Virus record (IMG/VR): IMGVR_UViG_3300029944_000016
Coordinates: 1-47,894 of that record
Length of the DNA stretch: 47,894 nucleotides
Source: a virus
Direction: 5' to 3' (one strand)
Shown: positions 1 to 47,894 of the stretch, one piece after another
How the letters are laid out: each line of letters opens with the position of its first letter
How positions within the stretch are numbered: position 1 is the first letter of the stretch
Made by a program: the position numbers and the translations under genes
Notes under the pieces: generated by a model
The model's input: the letters and a program-made list of their open reading frames with translations, nothing else
Databases searched by the model: none
Told to the model about the DNA's origin: nothing

Positions 1-127
1 CTTGTTAGGTGGTAGTGTAGTCCTGGAACCATTTTAAAGTCTTTATCTAGTGAGCATATTATTGTACGCTCATAACTTCCAGTAGTCCTAAAAGATTCCA
101 TTTGGTGTATAGTAAGTGAATCATCTG
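1..127. repeat. Terminal overlap, copy 1 (circular closure)
   Basis: These 127 bases are identical to the last 127 bases of the window. The exonuclease reading frame continues without a break when the ends are joined, so this is the overlap of a circular contig. A 127-base overlap is typical of assembly with k=127. It need not be a physical terminal repeat, and true ends (cos, pac or direct repeats) cannot be placed from it. Confidence 0.95.
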
Positions 128-536
128 CTTCCTGGCCTTCTACCTTAATAGCTCTATACTCGTTTACTAATATTTCCTTCAATCTTTTATAGTGTTGTGG
201 CTTAACGCTTCCAACACGATTTCCTTTATATGGTAGTATAGTTGCTAACTTTAACCTATAATTAGGGCTTAATTCGTTAAAAGTTAGGAATAATTTATAG
301 TTTTTAGTACCACATTCTTTAAATAATGTATTAAGTGTTGCATCCAACTTAGCCCTTAAGTGTTTTTCTGTACCCAGGACTACACGCTTAGTTACAGGAA
401 ATCCGTTTTTAATACTAGCAGCGTCTGCTTTTCCTTTATTCTTATATATAGCATTTTTACACACATACATAGGCTTTTCCATAGCAAATGCTACTTGATA
501 TAATATAATATCACCATCTATTAGTAACGTCTGCAA
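1..536 (-). CDS. 5'-3' exonuclease (FEN/T7 gp6-like), N-terminal part; continues at 47767
   Basis: Reading leftward from TTG at 536 gives LQTLLIDGDIILYQVA, the metal-binding N-terminal strand of flap/5'-3' exonucleases. It is followed by a YKGNR segment and the EADD acidic cluster. The frame runs off base 1 and continues at 47767 after closing the circle, ending at 47428 for about 291 aa, close to T7 gp6. The TTG start is chosen because AGAGG lies about 8 bases upstream and because the frame has no ATG before residue 20, which would remove the catalytic LIDGD. The family degrades duplex 5' ends and removes RNA primers during phage replication. It follows the 89-aa gene immediately. The rare start codon and the split across the window ends make this gene easy to mis-annotate. 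Confidence 0.9.
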   Translation of the reverse strand, partial: MQTLLIDGDIILYQVAFAMEKPMYVCKNAIYKNKGKADAASIKNGFPVTKRVVLGTEKHLRAKLDATLNTLFKECGTKNYKLFLTFNELSPNYRLKLATILPYKGNRVGSVKPQHYKRLKEILVNEYRAIKVEGQEADDSLTIHQMESFRTTGSYERTIICSLDKDFKMVPGLHYHLT

Positions 537-537
537 G

Positions 538-807
538 TTATTTACCTCTTTGTCTATTTTTCCACTTCTTAAATAGCGTAAGTCTTCGTGCCCTAACCGG
601 TTCTATTATATATAGACATACATCTTCTATAAATCTCCTAGTTACCTGTGGTCTATTTATGTGCCTACATGTGTGCATAATCTCGAATATGTCATTTTCT
701 CTATGATCTCTATCACTACTAACTTTAGTTAACCTATAAGGTGTATTGCATGACACACATGCACCCTCACTGCCCGATACAGTTAATAATTTATATTGCA
801 TTTTCAT
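538..807 (-). CDS. Hypothetical protein, 89 aa, Cys-containing and basic at the C-terminus
   Basis: Unrecognised. It has a CVSCN pair near residue 17 and a later CRH, which could form a small zinc site, and a very basic tail (KKWKNRQRGK). Its ATG overlaps the stop of the upstream 61-aa gene (ATGA), and its stop is one base from the exonuclease start, so it is translationally coupled in the leftward replication operon. A small nucleic-acid-binding role fits the charge but is a guess. Confidence 0.65.
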   Translation of the reverse strand: MKMQYKLLTVSGSEGACVSCNTPYRLTKVSSDRDHRENDIFEIMHTCRHINRPQVTRRFIEDVCLYIIEPVRARRLTLFKKWKNRQRGK

Positions 808-989
808 GAGTTATTCGCCCTAAAGCCAAACCCTAGTATTGAAACTTTTATAGATTTTAAAGTAGGATATTGATCTACATATTCCTTTTTATCGAAATTT
901 ATATATAAACTAGTGTCTAAACTAACATAGTACATGTCACTTCCTTGACTTGTAGTCTCATGTCTTATAGGAAATAGTAATTTAATCAT
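804..989 (-). CDS. Hypothetical protein, 61 aa
   Basis: Unrecognised small soluble protein with alternating hydrophobic and polar residues. It starts at 989 in a TAATG overlap with the stop of the preceding 35-aa membrane peptide and overlaps the next gene by ATGA. The tight coupling on both sides is the main evidence that it is real. Confidence 0.55.
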   Translation of the reverse strand: MIKLLFPIRHETTSQGSDMYYVSLDTSLYINFDKKEYVDQYPTLKSIKVSILGFGFRANNS

Positions 990-1096
990 TATTGATTACC
1001 GTATTTAATTAAAAAATCTATTAATACTGCGCACAAAGTACATGAAAATGCTACTATAACTATACATGCAAAATTGTGTAATGTTGTTTTAGACAT
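989..1096 (-). CDS. Small single-TM membrane peptide, 35 aa
   Basis: ATG at 1096 gives a 35-aa product whose residues 8-29 form one hydrophobic helix rich in I, V, A and C, followed by a short polar tail. An AGGGG Shine-Dalgarno sequence lies just upstream, within the end of the ClpP-like gene. Its stop overlaps the next start (TAATG). The function is unknown. Small membrane peptides of this type are common in phage early operons. Confidence 0.55.
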   Translation of the reverse strand: MSKTTLHNFACIVIVAFSCTLCAVLIDFLIKYGNQ

Positions 1097-1097
1097 A

Positions 1098-1715
1098 CTA
1101 CCACCCCTTCCAGTCGTCAAGAACTACCTTTTGTAAGTTTCTATACTCTTCAATTCTCTTATGAAGAACTGTTATTGTGAACACGTCTGATTGACTTAAT
1201 AGCCCCTTTGTAACGCACTGTTGGAATAGTGATGTGGTTGTTTCATCATTATCGTATACTTTATGTCCTTGGCTCTTTGATTCGTCTATGTTAAAAGAGT
1301 CATGGAATACTAATTTTCCCCTACCTACTATCTTAACAGAATCAGCATAACAAGCTATTCTTGCATGGTTACTAACAGCTTCTGTAGTAACTACAAAGTC
1401 AACTGTCTTACCTTCTGCATGTAACATCTTAACTACTTTAATAAACGCATCAGCAGTGTCGTTATATCCTCCTTCTCCGTCTATAGCAACTACTATAGTA
1501 TTATCCTTATCATGTAGCATACGTAATTCTAAGTTTACCCATGCCTCATCGTCAGACTCAAACATAGCTGTAGGGGCCACATAAGAACCGGCATGGGCTT
1601 TGTTAGCACTAAGTAGTACAAATATTACTGTTGCCATGAATGTAGCTTCTAACGTCCTATACGCAACTCTCTTTATAGTATGCTTAAGTTTATTCCGCAA
1701 AAGGTATTTCCTCAC
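1098..1715 (-). CDS. ClpP/SppA-fold serine protease-like protein with N-terminal membrane anchor or signal
   Basis: Residues 25-42 (FMATVIFVLLSANKAHA) look like a signal peptide or anchor, so the protein probably faces the periplasm. The rest follows the ClpP/crotonase pattern: VVAIDGEGGYNDTADAF matches the strand and glycine loop, then AVSNHARIACYADSVKIV places a serine (about S115) where ClpP has its nucleophile, then VFHDSF (about H138) matches the ClpP catalytic-histidine segment. The ORF opens with GTG at 1715. A TTG at 1700 sits about 9 bases after GAGG and may be the real start. It overlaps the end of spoVR by 26 bases. Proteolysis is inferred only from the fold. A second ClpP-like gene lies at 11844-12419. 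Confidence 0.7.
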   Translation of the reverse strand: MRKYLLRNKLKHTIKRVAYRTLEATFMATVIFVLLSANKAHAGSYVAPTAMFESDDEAWVNLELRMLHDKDNTIVVAIDGEGGYNDTADAFIKVVKMLHAEGKTVDFVVTTEAVSNHARIACYADSVKIVGRGKLVFHDSFNIDESKSQGHKVYDNDETTTSLFQQCVTKGLLSQSDVFTITVLHKRIEEYRNLQKVVLDDWKGW

Positions 1716-3180
1716 CGTCAGTTTTAATGTATTTAATGTGTACAGGGAACGGCCAGTACTTCTTTATCATATCCATTACAGCTTCACTCTTACATGCCCC
1801 AGTATCATCATCCTTAATCTCAACACCATTATGTTCTTGAATTACTAAGTATAAAGTTCTTCTCTTTTTGAAGTCCCAACCTTCTACATAAATATCTGGT
1901 ATATGGTTTCCGAATAGGTATTGCTTAGATAGCTTACTTCTTATTTCCTTGTACCCGTCATCATCGTGTATATGAGTAATTTCATATTCATTATTATCAC
2001 ACGAATCGTTCAACACGAACAGCTTAAGATCCCTCATTAGTTTAGGGCTTAAGTATTGCCCTATAAAACTCTCGTCCTTGAAATTATAAGCTGCAAATTT
2101 AACTTCTTCAATCCAATTCTTACCTATAAGTCCTGGGAACCATTCCTTATCTTCTTCTGTTGGATTCTCACATATACGTCTTATATCCTTGAACATCTCA
2201 AATCCAAGTTTATATGGATTAACTCCATTGTAGTATTTGCTATCAAAGTCGTGTTGTTTTAACACAGAGCAATGGCTGTGTAAGAATTCTATAGACTGAC
2301 CTGCCTCTAAGTACCCTAAGTCTCCTAAATCTGTCATTAGTGTATGATGCCAGAAAGATGCAAAACCTTCATTCATTAGCTTTGTAAGCATTTGAGGATA
2401 CAGGTACTGTTGAATCTTACAGTATATACTTATGATATCTCTTTGCCATTGTTTAAGTGCTGGAGAGAACTTACCAATAAACTTGAGTATGTTCTCCTCT
2501 CTTAGTCTTCCAGATCCTGGTGCAGACTTAGTAGTCTTATCTCCTAGCTGCTGAGTAAGGTCATAATCACGATCTTTATTTAAACTTCTCTCTAGCCTAA
2601 CTGCCTCCTTCTCCTTATTAGTCTTATTCCTAATAGGTCTACGGTCAATGGCATACAAAGATAAGGCGTGACACATATCCAATAAGCTTTCTACTTCCTT
2701 AGCACCATGCTGGTGTTCACACTCTTCTATGAATATCTTCATATTCTTAAGGAAAGGCATAATGCTATTAGCATTGGTATGTTCTTTAAAGTATATGTTA
2801 TTCTTAAAGAAGCTGGAATGTCCTACACTGGCATGGCATTGAACTAAAGCCTGCATTGTTGGCGAGTTATGCTCTAACAGATAGCACAGTGATGGATTTG
2901 TATTGAACACAACCTCATATGCTGTGCCCATTCTATCAGCTAAATATTGCTTATGAAGCTCTATGTACTGTCTTCCAAAACTCCAGTGGCTGTACATTAC
3001 AGGTAATGATCCTGTGTAAATATGTAACATATCTTCGAAGTTAACTACTTCAAAGTTAGGATTATACCAGTCTAAATTGTACTTTTCCTTAGCCAGCTTA
3101 GCTATTATGTTCCAACCATCTTCTAATGATTGCCCAGTCCAATCATCTAGTAGGAAAGGGCTATTTTTAACTTTTTTCAT
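1690..3180 (-). CDS. spoVR: SpoVR family protein (YcgB-like)
   Basis: The 496-aa product matches SpoVR/YcgB over its length. Near the N-terminus it has DWYNPNFEVVNFEDMLHIY, then MPVMYSHWSFGRQY-like and YEVVFNTNPSLCYLLEHNS blocks, a GHSSFFKNN segment and a central H-rich region typical of the family. E. coli YcgB is about 510 aa, so this copy is full length. The biochemical activity of SpoVR is unknown. It is linked to cortex formation in Bacillus and to RpoS-dependent stress in enterics. Its ATG overlaps the stop of the yeaH-like gene (ATGA), and both lie downstream of prkA, reproducing the host gene set. It appears intact, with no stops or frameshifts. Confidence 0.93.
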   Translation of the reverse strand: MKKVKNSPFLLDDWTGQSLEDGWNIIAKLAKEKYNLDWYNPNFEVVNFEDMLHIYTGSLPVMYSHWSFGRQYIELHKQYLADRMGTAYEVVFNTNPSLCYLLEHNSPTMQALVQCHASVGHSSFFKNNIYFKEHTNANSIMPFLKNMKIFIEECEHQHGAKEVESLLDMCHALSLYAIDRRPIRNKTNKEKEAVRLERSLNKDRDYDLTQQLGDKTTKSAPGSGRLREENILKFIGKFSPALKQWQRDIISIYCKIQQYLYPQMLTKLMNEGFASFWHHTLMTDLGDLGYLEAGQSIEFLHSHCSVLKQHDFDSKYYNGVNPYKLGFEMFKDIRRICENPTEEDKEWFPGLIGKNWIEEVKFAAYNFKDESFIGQYLSPKLMRDLKLFVLNDSCDNNEYEITHIHDDDGYKEIRSKLSKQYLFGNHIPDIYVEGWDFKKRRTLYLVIQEHNGVEIKDDDTGACKSEAVMDMIKKYWPFPVHIKYIKTDGEEIPFAE

Positions 3181-4409
3181 ACCTTCCCCTTCTTAAATAG
3201 GCTTCTGAATACTTCGAAAATATCCTTACTATTAATAACTACTTTACTCTTAAAGTTTACATTACTATCAGATACATTGTCAAGTATTTTAAGAAAATCA
3301 TTATTACTTGAATTCCTAGATCCTATATTTATATAGGCCATATACTGAACACTTGGTAATATTCTATTAACTAATAAATCAGTCATTAAATCATTGTCAT
3401 ATTCGAAATTCTCACCATCACTAGCCTGAGCTATGTATACATTCCACATTTCAGGATTGTATCTAGTGTTTATAATATCCTTTATTTTTTCATATCCAGA
3501 GCTTATTACTGTACCACCAGACCATGTATCATAGAAAAACTTCTTCTCGTCTACTTCTTCTGCTGTATCTGAGTGCCTTATGAACACAACATCTACTTGT
3601 TCGTAATTTCGTTTAAGGAACAGATTAAGAAGAATGAAGAATCGTTTAGCTATATCCTTCTCATACTCTCCCATACTTCCACTTACGTCCAACATGCAGA
3701 ACATTACTGCCTTAGTTGTGGGCTGCTCTACCTTATCTCTAAAATTGTACCTTAAATCCATTTCTTCAATGAATTGAACTTTCTTTTTAGGTACTAATAC
3801 AAATTCCTCACTAGTGTCAGAATCCGTTGCAGTTTCCATATCATTTAGTTCTAATATTAATTGATCCTTTTTTCTCTGTATAAATCTACGTCCTAAGCTA
3901 TTTAGAATAGTCCTTTTTACGTTTAAACTGCTAGGCCCTCCACTCTTGCTATACCCAGCAGGCTGTATTTCAAAAGTGTCAACACTAAACTGTCTTTTAA
4001 TAAGATCTGGAAGCTCTAAATCCTCGAAAAATAGGTTAGCGAATTCTTCCTCAGTAAGTGTGAACTCGAAACCATCGTTTGAGTCTCCAGAATTACCTCC
4101 AGACTTTCCAGATTTACCACTTCCTCTTGAAGGTCTTGGTATAGTGTCTCCTTTCTTAAAAGTCTTATTACCTATAAGTACGTGATCTTTGTTACCAGTA
4201 GTAGAGTCTAATTCAAAATTAGGACTGTCTAAGTCATCTATATTAATCTTAATCTTCTTAGAGCCGTTATTAAAATCCTTAATAGAGTTCTTATCTATCA
4301 TTTCCCTTATTTTCTTTTTAATAGAGTCTTTATACCTATCAATGAATTTTTGACGAGATCCTATTGTAGCTCCTTTAGGTAGAAATCTCTTGTCAATAAT
4401 AAGAGGCAT
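3177..4409 (-). CDS. yeaH: YeaH/YhbH family protein (DUF444, VWA-like)
   Basis: 410 aa; E. coli YeaH is about 427 aa. The order is an N-terminal basic region, an IGNKTFKKGDTIPRP stretch, a Gly/Ser-rich linker at about 96-112, then a C-terminal von Willebrand A-like domain. FCMLDVSGSMGEYEKD (about 237-252) carries the DxSxS metal site, and FIRHSDTAEEVDEKKFF and SGGTVISSGY follow as in DUF444. In bacteria YeaH is encoded next to the YeaG/PrkA kinase and is thought to work with it under starvation. Here it lies one small gene downstream of prkA and is coupled to spoVR by an ATGA overlap. It is intact. Confidence 0.93.
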   Translation of the reverse strand: MPLIIDKRFLPKGATIGSRQKFIDRYKDSIKKKIREMIDKNSIKDFNNGSKKIKINIDDLDSPNFELDSTTGNKDHVLIGNKTFKKGDTIPRPSRGSGKSGKSGGNSGDSNDGFEFTLTEEEFANLFFEDLELPDLIKRQFSVDTFEIQPAGYSKSGGPSSLNVKRTILNSLGRRFIQRKKDQLILELNDMETATDSDTSEEFVLVPKKKVQFIEEMDLRYNFRDKVEQPTTKAVMFCMLDVSGSMGEYEKDIAKRFFILLNLFLKRNYEQVDVVFIRHSDTAEEVDEKKFFYDTWSGGTVISSGYEKIKDIINTRYNPEMWNVYIAQASDGENFEYDNDLMTDLLVNRILPSVQYMAYINIGSRNSSNNDFLKILDNVSDSNVNFKSKVVINSKDIFEVFRSLFKKGKV

Positions 4410-4603
4410 TATACGTTCCTTTTTTGACGTTCTTTAACTAGTTGTTCATATCTAAATATATCATCTTTAAGGTCTTGTAACAAGCTGTCAGGAAAAGATC
4501 CCTCTAACCCTGACTCCAAAGCCTGCGCAGCTAATACAATGTCCTGTGAAGACTGTCTAACTAATCTAACTAGCTCTTTTAATGAGACTTTAAACTTAGC
4601 CAT
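4409..4603 (-). CDS. Hypothetical protein, 64 aa, between prkA and yeaH
   Basis: Unrecognised, helical and charged, with a possible coiled coil over residues 8-60. Its start is 3 bases from the prkA stop, and its stop shares a base with the yeaH start (TAATG), so it is fully embedded in the stress-gene set. I know of no equivalent in the bacterial yeaG-yeaH operon. A phage-specific adaptor or inhibitor of the kinase system is possible but unproven. Confidence 0.65.
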   Translation of the reverse strand: MAKFKVSLKELVRLVRQSSQDIVLAAQALESGLEGSFPDSLLQDLKDDIFRYEQLVKERQKRNV

Positions 4604-4605
4604 AA

Positions 4606-6585
4606 CTACCTCGGAGATCTAATATACCAGTCAATAAGAATTTGAATCATCTTAGGAGTATACCCTAGAGTCTGCATTCTAGTAACAAACTCCTGGTGTG
4701 CTCTCTTGTCACTAGCGTTAGCTTTCTCTGTATTACTGATAATTGGTAACATGTCGTCCATGTTAGCGAATATCTTCTTCTCAATAACTTCCCTTATTTT
4801 ATTGTAACTACCCCATGGTGGATTCTTTCCTTTATTAGATACTTGATATTTCAAGCAGTATCTTACAACTTCATGTCTAAAATCCTTTTTATTAGTTACA
4901 TTAGCTGGTGTTTCTATCTCTTCCAGGTACTTCTCTAAGTCCTGAGGAGTCATAGACAAACCTGTCATCTCATCCCTATAATCATTCTCATTTAACACGT
5001 GATCAGCGTATATTATGTACTTATCAAATATGTTCTGACCATAGTCTTGATATGACTCTATGTAGCTCTTCTTAACATCCTTATCAAATGTCTTGTGAAA
5101 CTCCTTATAAAGTACATCAATTAATTCTAAGTACAGTAATTCGTCTTCCTTAGCTAAATGTTCTTCCTTAATACGCTTTGATAATATCATAAGCAAGTGT
5201 AGAGGGTTAGCACTTACTTCGTCCTGACTATAATTAAATGTCTGAGCTAATATCTTAAATGCGAATCGTGTACTGATACCACTAAATCCTTCATCTGCAT
5301 TAGCCTCGTGAGCTTCAACATGGTATTCAGGTACATTTTTAGCATCTGGATTAGTATGTTTTAAATTCTCTCCATTATAAATCTTCATCTTAACAGTAGG
5401 CTGGCTATGTTTAGACTTAAACAATCGACTCATAACTGAGAACTGTGCCATTGTTTCTAGCGTCTTAGGAGCTACTGGAGCTGTTCCTAAGCTACTTTCT
5501 TTGAGCATTTTTTCGTAGATTTTAGTTTCCTCTGAGTATCTAAGGCAGTAAGGAACTCTAACGATAAATATTCTATCAATGAGTGCCTCATTCCGTTTGT
5601 CATTACGGAACTTCTGCCATTCGCTCTCATTACTATGGGCGATAATAATACCTTCAAACGGTATGGCGGAAATTGACTCAGTTCCTTTATAAAATCCTGA
5701 CTGAGTTGCTTCGAGGAGCGGATTAAGTGATTTAATTGGTGATTTGAACATTTCCGCAAATTCTGTAATACCTCTATTGCCGAGACACAATCCTCCAGAG
5801 AAGCTATAGGCGTCAGGGTCGTTTTGTGCATAGCTCTCTATCTCTCTAATGTTAAGTTTACCAACTAATGATGAAATATCTTGATTATTTTCATCGCCAG
5901 GTTCAATATGACTAATAGCTAACTGGTGAGCCTCACTAGGGTATACTTTAACAACTGTGAATTTAGTTAAATCCCCAGCAACTTCAGTAATACGCTTAGT
6001 CAACCATGGGCTAGGTATAACTCCGAAATAACGTTCTGGAATACCTAGTTCTTCTGCATCTTCCTTAGTGAATAAGGATAATGGGTTATCATTAATAGGG
6101 CTTATTTGATTAACTTCATCCTCTAATAGTATAGTTTTACCGTCCTTATCTTTACCATATACAGCTTCTTTATGGAATTTAAGGGCGTAGAAAGGCACTG
6201 ACTCCATTAGCCTCTTAATAATAGACACAATTGATGATTTACTACTACCAACAGGCCCTAAAAGATATAGAATCTGCTTACGCTCTTCAAGGCCTTGAGC
6301 GGCGTGTCTTACAAATCCTGCAATATCCTTAATTGTATGTTCTAATCCAAATATCTTATTGAAACTAGGATAAGTTGGAACTGTTTCGTTACTGAATATA
6401 CGGCTTAATCTGTCATCCTTTCTTGTATCCAACATCTCAACTTGTCCAATAGCTGCCAACAAACGTTCTGCTGGTGTAGCAAATGCAAGTTTATCAGTCT
6501 TACACAGATCTAAATACTCTTGTAATGACATCTCATTCTCAATTGTAGATGTAAGACGCTTACCTGCTTTAGCTAATATACTCAT
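4606..6585 (-). CDS. prkA: PrkA/YeaG family serine protein kinase (AAA+ domain)
   Basis: 659 aa; E. coli YeaG is about 644 aa. Residues 75-125 contain FGLEHTIKDIAGFVRHAAQG and the Walker A GPVGSSKSS (110-118), the hallmark PrkA P-loop. FEGIIIAHSNESEW and a region around RVPYCLRY follow in the AAA part. The C-terminal third carries the PrkA kinase-like domain, ending in a helical segment. The family phosphorylates serine on protein substrates and acts in starvation or sporulation signalling. The gene follows the 187-aa possible SSB and leads the set with yeaH and spoVR in the replication operon. The start is the first ATG, with a GGAGCTA-type site just upstream. It is full length and undamaged. 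Confidence 0.94.
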   Translation of the reverse strand: MSILAKAGKRLTSTIENEMSLQEYLDLCKTDKLAFATPAERLLAAIGQVEMLDTRKDDRLSRIFSNETVPTYPSFNKIFGLEHTIKDIAGFVRHAAQGLEERKQILYLLGPVGSSKSSIVSIIKRLMESVPFYALKFHKEAVYGKDKDGKTILLEDEVNQISPINDNPLSLFTKEDAEELGIPERYFGVIPSPWLTKRITEVAGDLTKFTVVKVYPSEAHQLAISHIEPGDENNQDISSLVGKLNIREIESYAQNDPDAYSFSGGLCLGNRGITEFAEMFKSPIKSLNPLLEATQSGFYKGTESISAIPFEGIIIAHSNESEWQKFRNDKRNEALIDRIFIVRVPYCLRYSEETKIYEKMLKESSLGTAPVAPKTLETMAQFSVMSRLFKSKHSQPTVKMKIYNGENLKHTNPDAKNVPEYHVEAHEANADEGFSGISTRFAFKILAQTFNYSQDEVSANPLHLLMILSKRIKEEHLAKEDELLYLELIDVLYKEFHKTFDKDVKKSYIESYQDYGQNIFDKYIIYADHVLNENDYRDEMTGLSMTPQDLEKYLEEIETPANVTNKKDFRHEVVRYCLKYQVSNKGKNPPWGSYNKIREVIEKKIFANMDDMLPIISNTEKANASDKRAHQEFVTRMQTLGYTPKMIQILIDWYIRSPR

Positions 6586-6598
6586 TTAGTAGCTCCAA

Positions 6599-7162
6599 TT
6601 ACAACATATCGTGGCTTGATGGCTTATTTTCTTTTGGCTCGGAAATACGCTTAGCAATTATATTTACAATCCATGGTGGCAATTCTTCCAGTTGCGTAGG
6701 CGTAATTTCCTCTACATCAAAATAAATCTTAGGACTGGTTACCAAGGGCTTAACTGAACCTTTAAGAACCTTAGGTAGTGGGGATACAGCTCCTACAGAT
6801 TGTTTGCTTTTATCCTTTTCTTGAGGCTTAATTTCTAATAATACCGGCTTGCCTAATTGAGCTTCGAAGTCTAAACCATCATTCTGCATATCCACACCAA
6901 ACGCTTTTCCTACTAACACAAGTCCAGATTTAGGGCCGGAAGCTGAATTATTTATAGTCTTACTTACAGTAAGGGGTGCTCCATTTGGTAATAGCTCGTC
7001 CTGTAATTCAAACTGTAAAAGTATTTGATCTTTTAACGACTCTTCATTATTATAGGTATTACGTTGTACTCCTAGATGTATTACGCCTGATAGTAAGGCT
7101 ATATGATTACCTAAAGGTAGAGATATACCTTCCTCCTGCTTAATCTTCTTTGCAATAGCCAT
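6599..7162 (-). CDS. Hypothetical replication-region protein; possible ssDNA-binding protein
   Basis: 187 aa. The N-terminal half (LPLGNHIALLSGVIHLGVQ, then LLQFELQDELLPNG) looks like a beta-barrel pattern seen in many phage proteins encoded beside polymerase, some of which bind single-stranded DNA. The C-terminus is charged and proline-rich, ending PSSHDML. No diagnostic motif proves the role. The call rests on its place between DNA polymerase and prkA and on the absence of another SSB candidate. The start is coupled to the stop of the 78-aa gene by a one-base overlap. Confidence 0.5.
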   Translation of the reverse strand: MAIAKKIKQEEGISLPLGNHIALLSGVIHLGVQRNTYNNEESLKDQILLQFELQDELLPNGAPLTVSKTINNSASGPKSGLVLVGKAFGVDMQNDGLDFEAQLGKPVLLEIKPQEKDKSKQSVGAVSPLPKVLKGSVKPLVTSPKIYFDVEEITPTQLEELPPWIVNIIAKRISEPKENKPSSHDML

Positions 7163-7407: not shown

Positions 7408-9336
7408 CTAGTGAGTCTGTGCCCAGTTACTGCCTTCTTGACTGTTTCCCTTCATTGGCGCTGGGAACTTAAAATACTCCCCAGCCTGCTTAATACTATT
7501 TTCTAATATATCTTTAACTATAGCACAGTTAATTGATTTGTCAACCTCTAATTGCCACTCATCATGAACATTTAATACAAATTCGTAATCTTTACCTGGT
7601 AAAAACTGTTTTTGTAGCTCAGTATCTGCAATATATAGAGCTTTTTTCATTAAAAGCGCTCCTGCACTCTGCAATACTGTATTAAGCTCTGCGTGTTCCG
7701 ATCTCATAAACAATTTACGACCGTCCAATCCTTTAATGAATCCTACTTCTTGTACTCTTTTATGTATTTCATTCTTTAGTTGTGTTAATTCTGGAATTCT
7801 ATCACCGAACCTCTTTAAACATTCCTTACCTGCTACCCAGCATTCCCAGTAAGCACTAGATTTATCTGATCCTTGCTCTTTAGCCCACTGAGCCATTCCA
7901 GCCGCATTCTTTCTAAAGTCTACCACATAATCTTCAAAATTCACACCATTTTCTAGCAATATTTTACCAACCTTAGCATTTTTAGCTCCATATAGCCAAG
8001 CATAGAACACTGTTTTGGCTGCTTCTCGTTCAATACCCATAGCTTCTGCGTTAATACTGTGAGGATCCGTTTTAGTTTCTTTAGTTCCTTGTAAAAGAGA
8101 AGTTAAGAACCTGCCACCATCCAGTTGTGTAAGGTACCCTGCCAAGCATCTCATCTCTAATGCATCTGCGTCGACACCAATCATTGTTCTGTGTTCGGGA
8201 ACAGTGAACAGTTCTCTACATTCAGCACCGTATAAGCTTTCACTGCTAGGAACCTGTGCTAAGTTGGGGCTAAAGTGACTCATACGTCCTGTAGTAGTAC
8301 CATTCTGCATAATACCACCCCTAATACGTCCATCCTTGCCAATCTTATTCAGCCACGCCTGTTTACCTGTCTCTAACTGAGATATCCGCTTGGTTATGGT
8401 TAGATACTCTTTTAACGGCAATAATTCCTTAAATGGAAGAGCATCTATAATATCCTCATTCATTTTAACGTTACCAGCTTCCGTGAACTCCTCAGGATTC
8501 CAGTTAAACTGCTGCTTTAATCTAGAAACTATCTGAACACGGCTGCCAGGATTAAATTCTTCTAATGCTATTTTTGTGATCTTTGAACCAGCCCTATATC
8601 CACGCTTTCTGTCGTCACGTTTTGGAGTAAATTCACCTTTACTAATGAACCTGGGTTTGAATATCTCTTGAAGCTTCCAACGACTGTCAACTAGTGAAGA
8701 CGTAAGTTTATCAAGAAGCTTGTGTCCTTTTTCCACATCAAATAGTACCCCATATGCTTGTTGACGTGCTAAAATTGGAGATATTGAGTATTCTAATTCA
8801 ATTGCTTCAGTAGTTAGTAATTTATTGGTAATTTGTGACATTAGAAACTGAAATAGTCCTTTTGTAGTATACGTGTCCTTAATACAATAAGATCCCATAT
8901 CATCATTATAAGTTTCCCAGCCTCCGTCATAATCTCCCTTATACTGGCAGATTCTTTGACCCCACGCTCTTAAACTATGTGATCCTGTATCTCTTTTACT
9001 AAATATTTTACCAGTCCATGAATGTGCCGATTTAGGATCTTCATTCTTTAAATCTGAGAACAAAAGTTGAGCCAATATAAAAGTGTCATGTATTTTCTGT
9101 CCTTTATGTGGCTTCCAATTACATAACTTTTCTATTACCTTTAAATCATAATTAAATATGTTGTGGCCAATTAACTCTACATCAGGACTATCAATTAGTT
9201 TAATGAACTCTTGTGCATCTTTTTCTAAGTATAGTTTAGACCAAGACGAGTTTAAATCCACTACAGATATACAGTGTATTTTAGTAACTTCTTGTAACAA
9301 TCCATTAGTTTCTAAATCTACAATGTACTGCTTCAT
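7408..9336 (-). CDS. DNA polymerase, family A, T7 gp5-like with 3'-5' exonuclease
   Basis: 642 aa; T7 gp5 is about 704 aa. Exo I is DLETNG (7-12), Exo II is GHNIFNYDLK (57-66), and Exo III is near GSYCIKDTYTT (148-158). The polymerase domain starts near 340 with GGIMQNGTTTGRMSH. Motif A is GVDADALEMRCLAGY (387-401), motif B includes KTVFYAWLYGA, and motif C is VHDEW near 593. All catalytic aspartates are visible. It is the replicative polymerase working with the primase-helicase two genes upstream. The ATG shares a base with the stop of the 98-aa basic protein. T7 recruits host thioredoxin through a thumb insertion; I cannot confirm such an insertion here. Confidence 0.97.
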   Translation of the reverse strand: MKQYIVDLETNGLLQEVTKIHCISVVDLNSSWSKLYLEKDAQEFIKLIDSPDVELIGHNIFNYDLKVIEKLCNWKPHKGQKIHDTFILAQLLFSDLKNEDPKSAHSWTGKIFSKRDTGSHSLRAWGQRICQYKGDYDGGWETYNDDMGSYCIKDTYTTKGLFQFLMSQITNKLLTTEAIELEYSISPILARQQAYGVLFDVEKGHKLLDKLTSSLVDSRWKLQEIFKPRFISKGEFTPKRDDRKRGYRAGSKITKIALEEFNPGSRVQIVSRLKQQFNWNPEEFTEAGNVKMNEDIIDALPFKELLPLKEYLTITKRISQLETGKQAWLNKIGKDGRIRGGIMQNGTTTGRMSHFSPNLAQVPSSESLYGAECRELFTVPEHRTMIGVDADALEMRCLAGYLTQLDGGRFLTSLLQGTKETKTDPHSINAEAMGIEREAAKTVFYAWLYGAKNAKVGKILLENGVNFEDYVVDFRKNAAGMAQWAKEQGSDKSSAYWECWVAGKECLKRFGDRIPELTQLKNEIHKRVQEVGFIKGLDGRKLFMRSEHAELNTVLQSAGALLMKKALYIADTELQKQFLPGKDYEFVLNVHDEWQLEVDKSINCAIVKDILENSIKQAGEYFKFPAPMKGNSQEGSNWAQTH

Positions 9337-9632
9337 TATCCGCCAGTCCTAGTACTTAATCTCATAACAGGTCTATGCTTAACATATTGATGTGCCAATT
9401 TAACTTTAAACACCCCAGTTTTATAGAATGATTTAGGCTTAACATTATTAACCTGTTTAGTAACTGTTCTAGCCAGTCCTTCCTTTATCATTTTAACTAA
9501 CCTATCATTCTGAAGTATTCGTATAGTCAATGTAATACTTTTTAAGTACTTAACTCTTTCATTTTGGAAATACTTTGGCATTCCTTTAACTCTTTTACGT
9601 TGATTCTTTAAATTTCTAATTGTCAAAGTCAT
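9336..9632 (-). CDS. Basic hypothetical protein, 98 aa
   Basis: Strongly basic (many K and R), with an internal repeat of the form LTIRxLxN at residues 3-8 and again at about 34-40. It is coupled at both ends by one-base overlaps to the primase-helicase and polymerase genes. The charge and position suggest nucleic-acid binding in the replisome. The family is not recognised. Confidence 0.6.
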   Translation of the reverse strand: MTLTIRNLKNQRKRVKGMPKYFQNERVKYLKSITLTIRILQNDRLVKMIKEGLARTVTKQVNNVKPKSFYKTGVFKVKLAHQYVKHRPVMRLSTRTGG

Positions 9633-11290
9633 TATATCATATCTCCCATTCTGTTATTAGCTTCTGCCATGTATTTATCAGCTTCTTCTAATTTATTTTT
9701 ATACTTATCAGGCACCTTAATACACTTTCTCTTAGGTAAGTATCTACCAGTATCTAAATTATATTCTATTAAATCTGCTTCACCAATAAACCCACTAACA
9801 CGATTCTTAATAACTTTTAACTGTACTTCATTAGGACTATCAGATCCTTTATTTCTATTAAGGCTTATAATAACATCACTTAGGTGTTCAATACTTCCAC
9901 TTCCACGAGCACTAGATTCAGTAATATCGGCTCCTTCTCCATATGACTTCTCTTGCCTCTTAAGTTGTGTAGCAATAATAAATGTAACTTGTGTACGTTC
10001 AGCGAATGCTCTCAAGTCCGTCATGATCCTATCAATAGCTCTTCTCTCTCCTTCTCCCTGATCTTCAAGTCCTGATATTAAAATTGATATATGATCTAAG
10101 AATACTATTGTAGCCTTTTTACCAATTACAAAATACTCTAACATATTAAATAGTCTTTTAGCATCCAAGCTACCAAAATGCCTATAAAATAGCATTTTAT
10201 CTTCTTTTCCATCATGTATTAATTTATCATAACTCTTTGTTCTATCAGTCTCCGATAGTAATTCTGGATTCTCGTTTAATTTGAATGTAGGAATGTTGCA
10301 TTCTAACGCAAACAGAGACTTAACTGTATGTTTTAAATTTTCTTCTAAAAAGAAATTAGCTATTACTTGTTCGGGATGATGTATTCGTAAATGTCTTAAA
10401 CATTCTTTCATTATTGAGGTTTTACCATTACCAGTTCCTGCATAGAATGTATATAAACGTCCTGGCAACCAGCCTCGTATCATTTCATCCATCATTGGAT
10501 AAGGAGAACTAAGTCCACTGTCTTCCTTAGTGAACAATGTTGTTAAATCAATTTCACGTCCTGTAACAATACCATCTGGTCTATACTCTGCAGCATTCCA
10601 TACTATAGATGTCAATTCTTTAATTTTACCAGCTACAAGCACTTCATTAGCGTCTTTACCGCTGAGATTTGCAATTCTGATTTTCCCTGGAGCAAAGAGG
10701 GCAGCAACAGCCTCAGTTGCTCGTTGACCAGCATCATCGCGATCAAAGCATAAAATGATTTGGTCAAAACCGCTGAGCCACTCAAGTTCGGCTGTAATTG
10801 TTTTAACTGCTGATTGCGCGCCATTAGGTATTGATACAACAGGCCATTTACAATCCTGACTTTCCGCGATCGATAGGGCATCAATTTCACCTTCAGTAAT
10901 AATAATATTCTTTGATTTGTTATTCCACAAATGCTTACCAAATAGGGTTGCCTTATTAGGCTCTCCTTTCCATGCGAATCTTTTATCTGGGTATCTAATC
11001 TTTTGAGCTACAATTTTACCTGTAGTATCTCTGTAATTTGCAATATGGGTTGAAGCTCCATTTTCAAATCCTACCTCATAGCTGAAGAACTCACATGTAC
11101 GTTGTGACAATCTACGATTAGGAATTGGCTCATAGACTCCCTTGTCTAAATCTGTTGGTGTGTCGTTAACAACTTTACGAGTTTTATTATATGAACAGTC
11201 TTCAGTGAAACACCATGTGCTTCCATTATCGAAAACTGCTCTATTATCATCACTTCCGCAGTCTTCACAAGGTTCTCTAATTACTGCCAT
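9632..11290 (-). CDS. DNA primase-helicase, T7 gp4-like
   Basis: 552 aa. The zinc-binding domain has C8, C11, C27 and C32. TOPRIM motifs follow: TEGEIDAL (132-139) and FDRDDAG (182-188). After a linker comes the RecA-like helicase with Walker A AGTGNGKT (284-291), a FFLEEN motif, IVFLDHISIL (Walker B) and an ATQLKRQ sensor segment. The protein primes lagging strands and unwinds DNA 5' to 3' as a hexamer. It is the first large gene of the leftward replication block, starting one base from the stop of the 62-aa zinc-ribbon gene. All key motifs are present. Confidence 0.97.
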   Translation of the reverse strand: MAVIREPCEDCGSDDNRAVFDNGSTWCFTEDCSYNKTRKVVNDTPTDLDKGVYEPIPNRRLSQRTCEFFSYEVGFENGASTHIANYRDTTGKIVAQKIRYPDKRFAWKGEPNKATLFGKHLWNNKSKNIIITEGEIDALSIAESQDCKWPVVSIPNGAQSAVKTITAELEWLSGFDQIILCFDRDDAGQRATEAVAALFAPGKIRIANLSGKDANEVLVAGKIKELTSIVWNAAEYRPDGIVTGREIDLTTLFTKEDSGLSSPYPMMDEMIRGWLPGRLYTFYAGTGNGKTSIMKECLRHLRIHHPEQVIANFFLEENLKHTVKSLFALECNIPTFKLNENPELLSETDRTKSYDKLIHDGKEDKMLFYRHFGSLDAKRLFNMLEYFVIGKKATIVFLDHISILISGLEDQGEGERRAIDRIMTDLRAFAERTQVTFIIATQLKRQEKSYGEGADITESSARGSGSIEHLSDVIISLNRNKGSDSPNEVQLKVIKNRVSGFIGEADLIEYNLDTGRYLPKRKCIKVPDKYKNKLEEADKYMAEANNRMGDMI

Positions 11291-11843: not shown

Positions 11844-12419
11844 TTATTCAACCAGCCTCTTAATTTTACGTAGTCGTTTCATAATGTCTTCTCGTTTCAA
11901 GTACAAATCTCTTCCCTTATTGACTCCTCTAATCTCCTTAGGTGTTAGAAACTTATTTGTTACTGAATGGAACATTTCGTCAAAGAAAGGCTTTTCATGT
12001 GTAATAGAAGCATGTTGTTCGTGTCCTTTACCACTTGTTCCTCCACTATAATCGTGGAACATGAAGAACGTATTTGCCTCTATTATTAATTTATCAGCAC
12101 TTAAAGCTATTAATGGTGCCATAGAATATAATGGGCCACTAACCACTGCAACTGTCTTACCTCTACAAGCTTTCATAGAATTTATAATATCAATTCCTGT
12201 GTGTACATATCCACCAAAGTTATTCAAGTAAATTATAAATCTATCATCGCTGGATGATGTTCTTAGTAAGTTAAACATTTTGCGATAGTGTTCTGCCTCA
12301 CCAACTTCTTTATTTAGGTATATTGAATATACATTCTGCACATTAGGATTATTTACTATATATACTAATGAGTTACCATCGTCATTATAATCATCACAAG
12401 AGCTTGTACGTTGTGGCAT
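11844..12419 (-). CDS. ClpP-like serine protease, cytoplasmic type
   Basis: 191 aa, the usual ClpP length. FIIYLNNFGGYVHTGIDIIN (61-80) matches the ClpP glycine loop and helix. SGPLYSMAPLIALSADK carries the nucleophile-position serine (S99), and FFMFHDYSGG has the histidine (H122). A charged C-terminal helix follows. No signal peptide. In phages, ClpP-like proteins are usually prohead proteases of the late operon, but this one is in the early region, far from the capsid genes. It may modify host proteolysis. It starts 2 bases after the stop of the coiled-coil membrane protein upstream. Confidence 0.85.
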   Translation of the reverse strand: MPQRTSSCDDYNDDGNSLVYIVNNPNVQNVYSIYLNKEVGEAEHYRKMFNLLRTSSSDDRFIIYLNNFGGYVHTGIDIINSMKACRGKTVAVVSGPLYSMAPLIALSADKLIIEANTFFMFHDYSGGTSGKGHEQHASITHEKPFFDEMFHSVTNKFLTPKEIRGVNKGRDLYLKREDIMKRLRKIKRLVE

Positions 12420-24077: not shown

Positions 24078-24327
24078 TTGGTTGGACAGCCCAGTAACTA
24101 GGGCATATTTAGAGTTAATAGATGAACATCTTGAAGCTAATAGGGGCGGAGTAACACAGATAGTATTGAGCGGTAAGGTTATAAGAGATTTAGGCGAAGA
24201 TTTGGCTCAACTTAAAGGTCAAATTTATACATTAGAATTATTAAAAGAAGTTAGAATGTTCCTTCAAGAGAGGATAAATGATGAAGAAGTACAGACCAGT
24301 AAGACAATGCTTGATAGTGAAGATTAA
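24040..24327 (+). CDS. Hypothetical late protein, 95 aa, GTG start inside the portal gene
   Basis: The GTG at 24040 is preferred because AAGGAGG, a near-perfect ribosome-binding site, lies 8 bases upstream inside the Gln-rich end of the portal gene. The conserved-looking core is WLDSPVTRAYLELIDEHLEA followed by VTQIVLSGKVIRDLGEDLAQ and a charged helix. Proteins of this size often follow portals in podoviruses and may act in head assembly. Its end overlaps the GroES-like gene by 50 bases. Confidence 0.6.
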   Translation: MQHQLLKQQQVSDWLDSPVTRAYLELIDEHLEANRGGVTQIVLSGKVIRDLGEDLAQLKGQIYTLELLKEVRMFLQERINDEEVQTSKTMLDSED

Positions 24328-24598
24328 TAAACAAGAGTTTGAAAAGTCAGCAGGCGGTATAGTTTTCGTACAGTCTACTATAGAAAAGGAAGCAATGGCT
24401 AAGGAGGAAGGTACTATTATTGCTTTAGGTGAAGATATGTTCCCAGATTCACTGGCAAGCAATAGGCCTGATATTAAGGTTGGAGATGTAATAGCTTTTG
24501 CAAGATACGCAGGAAAACAACTAGTCAAAGAAGACTCAGAAGGGAATGAAATTAGAGTAATGTTGGACAAAGATATATTAGCCGTAGTAGAGGAATAA
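24278..24598 (+). CDS. GroES-like co-chaperonin
   Basis: 106 aa with the Cpn10 pattern in order: YRPVRQCLIVKINKQEFEKS, a mobile-loop-position segment with AGGIVF, KEEGTIIALGED, VKVGDVIAFARYAGKQL-like and DKDILAVVEE. GAGAGGAT precedes the ATG. Phage co-chaperonins (T4 gp31, RB49 CocO) replace GroES so that host GroEL can fold the capsid protein. Here the gene lies between portal and scaffold, fitting that job. No GroEL is encoded. The mobile loop differs from GroES, so activity should be tested. Confidence 0.88.
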   Translation: MMKKYRPVRQCLIVKINKQEFEKSAGGIVFVQSTIEKEAMAKEEGTIIALGEDMFPDSLASNRPDIKVGDVIAFARYAGKQLVKEDSEGNEIRVMLDKDILAVVEE

Positions 24599-47213: not shown

Positions 47214-47431
47214 TACACTTCCTTCTTAGGGTATTGACTTAATCGTCCAAATGTAATGTTCTTAGACCCCCTAATCTGGGGGTTTTGAAACGTCCATATT
47301 TCTGAAGTTTCATCTATAATTACTGTCCATAGCATATTGTGCTCTTCACTAAGTTCATTTACAAATATGGCAAGTCCATGACCTTTAGGAGTCTGTACTG
47401 GTATTGAAGGATTAAGTTGCAATAATGTCAT
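47213..47431 (-). CDS. Hypothetical protein, 72 aa
   Basis: Small beta-rich protein (IPVQTPKGHGLAIFVNELSE followed by LWTVIIDETSEIWTFQNPQI), in the style of phage modulator proteins. It overlaps the exonuclease stop by ATGA. Unrecognised. Confidence 0.6.
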   Translation of the reverse strand: MTLLQLNPSIPVQTPKGHGLAIFVNELSEEHNMLWTVIIDETSEIWTFQNPQIRGSKNITFGRLSQYPKKEV

Positions 47432-47894
47432 ACTAAACCTCTCTTTTTATCTTCACTCCAGATTTGTCCTGGGTGACGTCTCAACCACAATAGGTTACCA
47501 ATCTCTAGAAATTCCTTATCTGAATATCCATAGGCTTCATACATTCCTAATACATGATTATACACATCATCAGGTTTCATGTCAACTATAATCTCATTAA
47601 AATGCTTTAAATAGTGTGTGTGTGTTAGTTTATCAGCTTCTTCTACACGCCCTTGCAGTCTAAGAGTCTTAGTAAGTCCTGGTATATTATCACCAGCATC
47701 CCCTATAAGTATCTGCCTGTAGAAACTAATCATAGCTTCATCTTCAGTTACTAGTGATATTACCTTACTTGTTAGGTGGTAGTGTAGTCCTGGAACCATT
47801 TTAAAGTCTTTATCTAGTGAGCATATTATTGTACGCTCATAACTTCCAGTAGTCCTAAAAGATTCCATTTGGTGTATAGTAAGTGAATCATCTG
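47428..47894 (-). CDS. 5'-3' exonuclease (FEN/T7 gp6-like), C-terminal part; continues from position 536
   Basis: The minus-strand frame enters from the other end of the window; bases 47768-47894 duplicate 1-127. IICSLDKDFKMVPGLHYHL carries the second acidic metal site, and GDAGDNIPGL is the helix-3-turn-helix that grips DNA. The internal ATG at 47868 is not the true start: it lies about 145 codons inside the gene. The stop at 47428 overlaps the next start. Joined with 1-536 the protein is about 291 aa. Confidence 0.9.
   Translation of the reverse strand, partial: DDSLTIHQMESFRTTGSYERTIICSLDKDFKMVPGLHYHLTSKVISLVTEDEAMISFYRQILIGDAGDNIPGLTKTLRLQGRVEEADKLTHTHYLKHFNEIIVDMKPDDVYNHVLGMYEAYGYSDKEFLEIGNLLWLRRHPGQIWSEDKKRGLV
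47768..47894. repeat. Terminal overlap, copy 2 (circular closure)
   Basis: Exact copy of bases 1-127; see that entry. Removing one copy leaves a 47,767-bp circle. Confidence 0.95.

Follow-up and report, generated by a model that had tools for sequence, protein, structure and literature searches.

A prkA-yeaH-spoVR operon kept as a unit by a podovirus-like phage and recurring across other viruses

Introduction

PrkA (YeaG), YeaH (DUF444) and SpoVR (YcgB) are widespread in bacteria and have been tied to starvation, antimicrobial peptides and sporulation, while their joint mechanism is poorly understood. Specifically, YeaG and YeaH act as a metabolic brake in nitrogen-starved Escherichia coli (PMC10954441), and YcgB, YeaH and YeaG are co-conserved, with yeaH and ycgB both required against antimicrobial peptides (PMC2375023). 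Of 80 bacterial loci, mainly beta- and gammaproteobacterial, most show the operon prkA/yeaG-yeaH-spoVR(ycgB) with the same families in the same order and with comparable overlaps. The same three genes are found in the DNA analysed here, the IMG/VR virus record IMGVR_UViG_3300029944_000016, which is treated over its full 47,894 nucleotides and called the window below. Unlike the bacterial operon, the window triad lies in a phage together with replication genes, encodes proteins only about 50-54% identical to the bacterial ones, has a replaced glycine in the Walker A motif of PrkA and includes an extra open reading frame (ORF) of 64 amino acids.

Each of the three families was known before, as was their presence in some phages. 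The Thermus phages phiYS40, TMA, phiLo, MN1 and Lalka8/27 and the megaphages LR745206, LR756502, LR756504 and LR756511 are annotated precedents that likewise carry PrkA, a DUF444/vWA protein and SpoVR. The Thermus phage proteins, however, are about 23-30% identical to those of the window over most of their length and follow the order yeaH-spoVR-prkA, whereas the megaphages have genomes of about 600 kb and, in LR756502, a SpoVR gene distant from the other two. The LR756504 SpoVR (L005:14516-16423) contains an intein-like insert of about 130 amino acids at NEG/CATF. SpoVR (ORF28) and PrkA (ORF30) have also been reported together in the Ralstonia jumbo phage RsoM2USA (PMC8504454), and in viromes of the eastern tropical North Pacific spoVR outnumbered every other sporulation-type viral gene in the oxygen minimum zone and was read as a sporulation gene (PMC8940887). 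The available parts of these two reports do not treat the three genes as one unit, and a search of the openly accessible journal literature found no account of a conserved viral triad, of its podovirus-like inheritance or of the P-loop change described below.

A further point of comparison is provided by the MoxR AAA+/vWA systems, such as NorQ-NorD and RavA-ViaA, which also pair an AAA+ ATPase with a vWA protein bearing a metal ion-dependent adhesion site (MIDAS). For NorQ-NorD, iron insertion into the target has been proposed to rely on a twisting force that acts on the vWA protein (PMC13036017). The window system, known from sequence and structural models, differs in that PrkA belongs to an AAA+ family of its own with a C-terminal domain and in that a third protein, SpoVR, is present.

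Results

The original prediction had placed the three families in the window in order, full length and intact, and domain searches returned every one of them exactly so, all on the minus strand. PrkA (659 amino acids, 4606..6585) comprises the AAA+ ATPase and the PrkA C-terminal domain over its full length (Pfam AAA_PrkA, PF08298, 4.5e-142; PF06798, 1.2e-56) and reaches 852 bits against the NCBIfam equivalog NF011999, for which the cut-off is 576. Its residues K116, R247 and K444 correspond to K116, R232 and K426 of E. coli YeaG, as mapped by alignment to the 644-amino-acid Enterobacter YeaG encoded in the phage LAU1 record; all three are kept, and each is needed in vivo in E. coli (PMC4664914). 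The label of kinase that had been given to this protein is doubtful, as purified Bacillus anthracis PrkA had no kinase activity (PMC13001217).

YeaH (410 amino acids, 3177..4409) matches DUF444 over its full length (PF04285, 5.3e-130) and passes the NCBIfam equivalog cut-off with 443.5 bits against 396. Its C-terminal part is predicted to adopt a vWA fold, whose structural matches include, among many vWA domains, NorD (9qhe) and the Midasin MIDAS. The MIDAS signature DxSxS-T-D is complete (D241, S243, S245, T300 and D331) and invariant across 64 sequences. SpoVR (496 amino acids, 1690..3180) covers model positions 1-404 of the 407 in PF04293 (2e-124). Its NCBIfam score of 515.9 bits stays under the cut-off of 679 for the proteobacterial equivalog PRK11767 and its Pfam score lies far over the Pfam cut-off; by its profile matches it is thus a member of the SpoVR family and is not called equivalent to the proteobacterial PRK11767 protein. 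A set of histidines and glutamates, H65, E89, H116, H121, E155, E271 and H278, is invariant in 75 SpoVR sequences, and the AlphaFold model has a mean-confidence score (pLDDT) of 88. ARAGORN also calls a 92-base tRNA-Phe at 2991-3082 (minus strand), on the coding strand within spoVR, which is probably a false positive.

The spacing of the genes suggests a single tight minus-strand operon. A 13-bp gap precedes prkA, 2 bp separate it from the 64-amino-acid ORF (4409..4603, minus strand), and overlaps of the type TAATG and ATGA lead into yeaH and spoVR, respectively. From these short gaps and overlaps we infer that the triad is co-transcribed with the replication genes upstream: a replication initiation protein (6599..7162), a family A DNA polymerase (7408..9336) and a T7-type primase/helicase (9632..11290), the last two identified by profile matches and all on the minus strand. 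The first of these had been taken for a possible single-stranded DNA-binding protein and is instead an NGO0469-family phage replication initiation protein (NCBIfam NF046043, 84.4 bits, cut-off 75). The 64-amino-acid ORF has no family match and was not found in related triads.

That a 5'-3' exonuclease flanks the triad on its other side, as had been proposed, holds in part. The exonuclease is present (291 amino acids, minus strand), yet it runs across the terminal repeat in the circularised sequence, its 3' part at 47428..47894 and the rest at 1-536, so that it spans the record ends from 536 to 47428, and three small ORFs separate it from spoVR. One of these, at 1098..1715 (minus strand), is weakly ClpP-like (phrog_1827, 1.2e-5; a ClpP-related NCBIfam model at 1.7e-4, below cut-off); it overlaps the end of spoVR by 26 bases and has a signal-peptide-like N-terminus, judged by eye only. 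A second ClpP-like protein is encoded at 11844-12419 (minus strand), and several relatives likewise have it close to their triads. A GroES/Cpn10-like protein (24278-24598, plus strand) lies between the portal and scaffold-like genes and is kept in most triad-bearing portal relatives. GroES-like and ClpP-like proteins together with PrkA, YeaH and SpoVR amount to an unusual load of protein-handling genes for one small phage.

The record itself has the features of a phage genome. An exact 127-bp repeat stands at both ends of the window (1-127 and 47768-47894), and once these ends are joined the exonuclease ORF of 291 amino acids continues across them. The genome, at 47.8 kb, is thus probably complete. 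The remaining genes include TerL, an SU10-like portal and adaptor, capsid, head-closure and lysis-like genes. The possibility that the triad is host DNA, recently acquired or contaminating and useless to the phage, is not fanciful in general, given that such records exist: the record of Enterobacter phage LAU1 (MN688132, positions 1-3308) bears host-type yeaG-yeaH at the extreme genome end, which cluster with bacterial copies and are probably included host DNA. For the window it is extremely improbable. Specifically, the genome closes on its exact terminal repeat, a second contig (L011) is 100% identical to it over 10,322 bp spanning the upstream prkA junction at 6585, and the codon usage of the triad correlates with that of the other window phage genes at 0.81-0.94, ordinary for this phage. 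As far as sequence can tell, a host-DNA chimera is ruled out by these observations, and the codon break that would have marked one at 1690 or 6585 was not seen. Furthermore, the window triad clusters with other podovirus records, its nearest bacterium being only about 54% identical, and the relatives' copies are under purifying selection.

A survey of phages for the same three genes, as the original prediction had called for, shows that the triad recurs as a unit in dozens of other viruses. Profile scans of IMG/VR returned 243 PrkA relatives and at least 235 SpoVR relatives, some of which are likely host fragments, with a TerL match in 33 of the 50 long records tested (about 23 of them strong). 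Where the flank was long enough to test, the triad was complete at 58 of 59 and at 62 of 62 viral loci, and in the PrkA-scan set the order was prkA-yeaH-spoVR without exception. The window portal is common to seven more triad records of the 50 (28-40% identity, 35-47 kb); all seven have TerL, and most have a GroES-like and a scaffold-like gene. TerL was dropped as a lineage marker for being too widespread, and the portal was used instead.

These copies have evidently resided in phages for a long time. In the PrkA tree the phage copies fall into phage-only groups, with most bacteria in another group. The single-gene PrkA tree did not join the podovirus copies, whereas the three-gene tree places eight podovirus triads, the window included, on one side of a branch with 97% support in the Shimodaira-Hasegawa-like approximate likelihood ratio test (SH-aLRT). 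On the three-gene tree a single viral origin of all triads is rejected (approximately unbiased, AU, test, p 2e-5), the tested group having been named before the tree was seen. The nearest bacterial copies, about 54% identical, are nearly all from Beta- and Gammaproteobacteria; a Bacteroidota donor was discarded, with a strong PrkA match in just 1 of 80 genomes, the centre itself. The phage-only groups, the distance to the nearest bacteria and the rejected single origin together indicate that the genes crossed between bacteria and viruses more than once and then stayed in phages for long. Among viral pairs, the ratio of nonsynonymous to synonymous substitution rates (dN/dS) is 0.03-0.12 where computable, which points to strong purifying selection, although dS is near saturation and the ratios are rough.

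In the ATP-binding loop of PrkA, viral copies repeatedly depart from the bacterial pattern. The key motifs had been described as kept, and this is true of the complete MIDAS and of the Walker A lysine and serine but not of the glycine preceding that lysine, as the window reads GPVGSSKSS against the bacterial GPVGGGKSS. All 80 bacterial loci have glycine there, as does a further set of YeaG-type copies from Pseudomonadota genomes drawn evenly across the phylum. Among 95 viral clusters with a residue at this position, 26 have alanine or serine. The window is among these, as are almost all of its portal relatives; the 26 also count the Thermus phages and LR756511, whose PrkAs fall in a distant subfamily. 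A tree of YeaG-type copies requires ten P-loop changes, at least eight of them forced by well-supported branches. A solved PrkA homologue of the same distant subfamily, 9xip, reads GPVGSAKST, with alanine before the lysine; the glycine therefore does not define the wider PrkA family, and a strictly phage-specific P-loop had to be narrowed to the YeaG-type subfamily. Alanine before the lysine is also known in MCM and MoxR P-loops, which makes retuning of the ATPase more likely than its loss.

The same change could be read as the mark of a poison, in which P-loop-altered phage copies mix or compete with the host PrkA-YeaH-SpoVR and shut down quiescence or a defence relying on it. The repeated loss of the glycine in viral PrkAs, with none in the sampled bacterial YeaG-type copies, and the 50-56% identity to host-type copies would fit such interference. 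We nevertheless consider it improbable. The loop lysine and serine and all residues essential in vivo stay in place, and 9xip, too, has alanine there, so that activity is probably not lost. Moreover, one gene would suffice for a poison, whereas selection maintains all three, and PADLOC defence models gave no match up to E 0.01.

Discussion

The best overall reading of these data, held tentatively and at somewhat under an even chance, is that the phage has kept a bacterial operon encoding a remodelling machine that aids replication in a starved or stressed host. A bacterial prkA-yeaH-spoVR operon would have been acquired whole by an ancestor of the podovirus-like lineage and then retained as a phage module expressed alongside the replication genes. 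PrkA would be an oligomeric AAA+ ATPase and YeaH the vWA adaptor that binds a client at its MIDAS metal site; SpoVR would be the third obligate member of the complex, probably a metal-binding effector or client. The invariant MIDAS of YeaH and its predicted vWA fold, which has NorD among its matches, together with the His/Glu set and unmatched fold of SpoVR, are the grounds for proposing an ATP-driven machine that works like the MoxR AAA+/vWA systems, of which NorQ-NorD is an example. The likeness is one of working only, as Pfam assigns the window PrkA to AAA_PrkA and PrkA alone and the trio stands outside the MoxR family. During infection, the phage copy would supply this machine and hold the starved or stressed host in a state fit for replication. 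That many viruses carry all three genes together argues that the phage uses the whole machine.

The link to starved hosts is drawn from the genetics of YeaG and YeaH in E. coli (PMC10954441). The original prediction was that the phage may reprogram stationary-phase or stress signalling while it replicates; the complete set in a replication operon and its recurrence as a unit bear this out in part, but reprogramming as such is not established and leans on that E. coli work (PMC4664914, PMC10954441). Several observations weigh against the proposed machine or its benefit to the phage. A Foldseek search with the SpoVR fold found no match in the PDB at E<=0.001, leaving the protein with no solved relative, and its invariant His/Glu set suggests a metal site through conservation as the sole basis. 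In a set of 34 portal relatives picked without regard to the triad, many of them fragments, only 1 has it, and the triad is accordingly an accessory module in the portal lineage; the DNA polymerase of the window was not detectable in the triad-free relatives. In addition, the trio of Thermus phage Lalka8 lies between a minor head protein and TerL, which fits a role in assembly equally well.

This last observation leads to a different explanation, in which PrkA-YeaH, with or without SpoVR, is a virion assembly chaperone that remodels phage structural proteins, the bacterial stress role being beside the point. It is plausible for the Thermus phages, in which the trio adjoins head and packaging genes (in phiYS40 it is likewise near TerL), and for jumbo phages and an archaeal virus an assembly-chaperone role of MoxR-vWA pairs has been suggested (PMC7824862). 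The GroES-like protein encoded between the portal and scaffold-like genes of the window, and a ClpP-like protein, are also in keeping with it. In the window, however, the trio sits with the replication genes on the strand opposite to the structural block, its neighbours in big phages are mostly nucleotide-metabolism-like genes (identified by eye), and most portal relatives assemble without it. We consider this explanation unlikely.

Returning to a remodelling machine that serves replication, a bolder version would hold that viruses have repeatedly domesticated the three-part machine, with P-loop changes of one kind retuning the ATPase, and that SpoVR, as a metalloenzyme switched on by PrkA-YeaH, lets them control the metabolic state of starved hosts. 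We regard this as doubtful, with a chance of little better than one in five. If true, the trio would serve viruses as a general tool, with phages offering the simplest system in which to study its mechanism.

The retention of all three genes by viruses, ordered and under selection, provides independent evidence that PrkA, YeaH and SpoVR form one machine, and the recurrent change in the ATP-binding loop of the viral copies singles out one residue that can be assayed. In small phages that bear the trio, its role is testable by deletion. As such, viruses may reveal the function of a machine that bacteria carry so widely.

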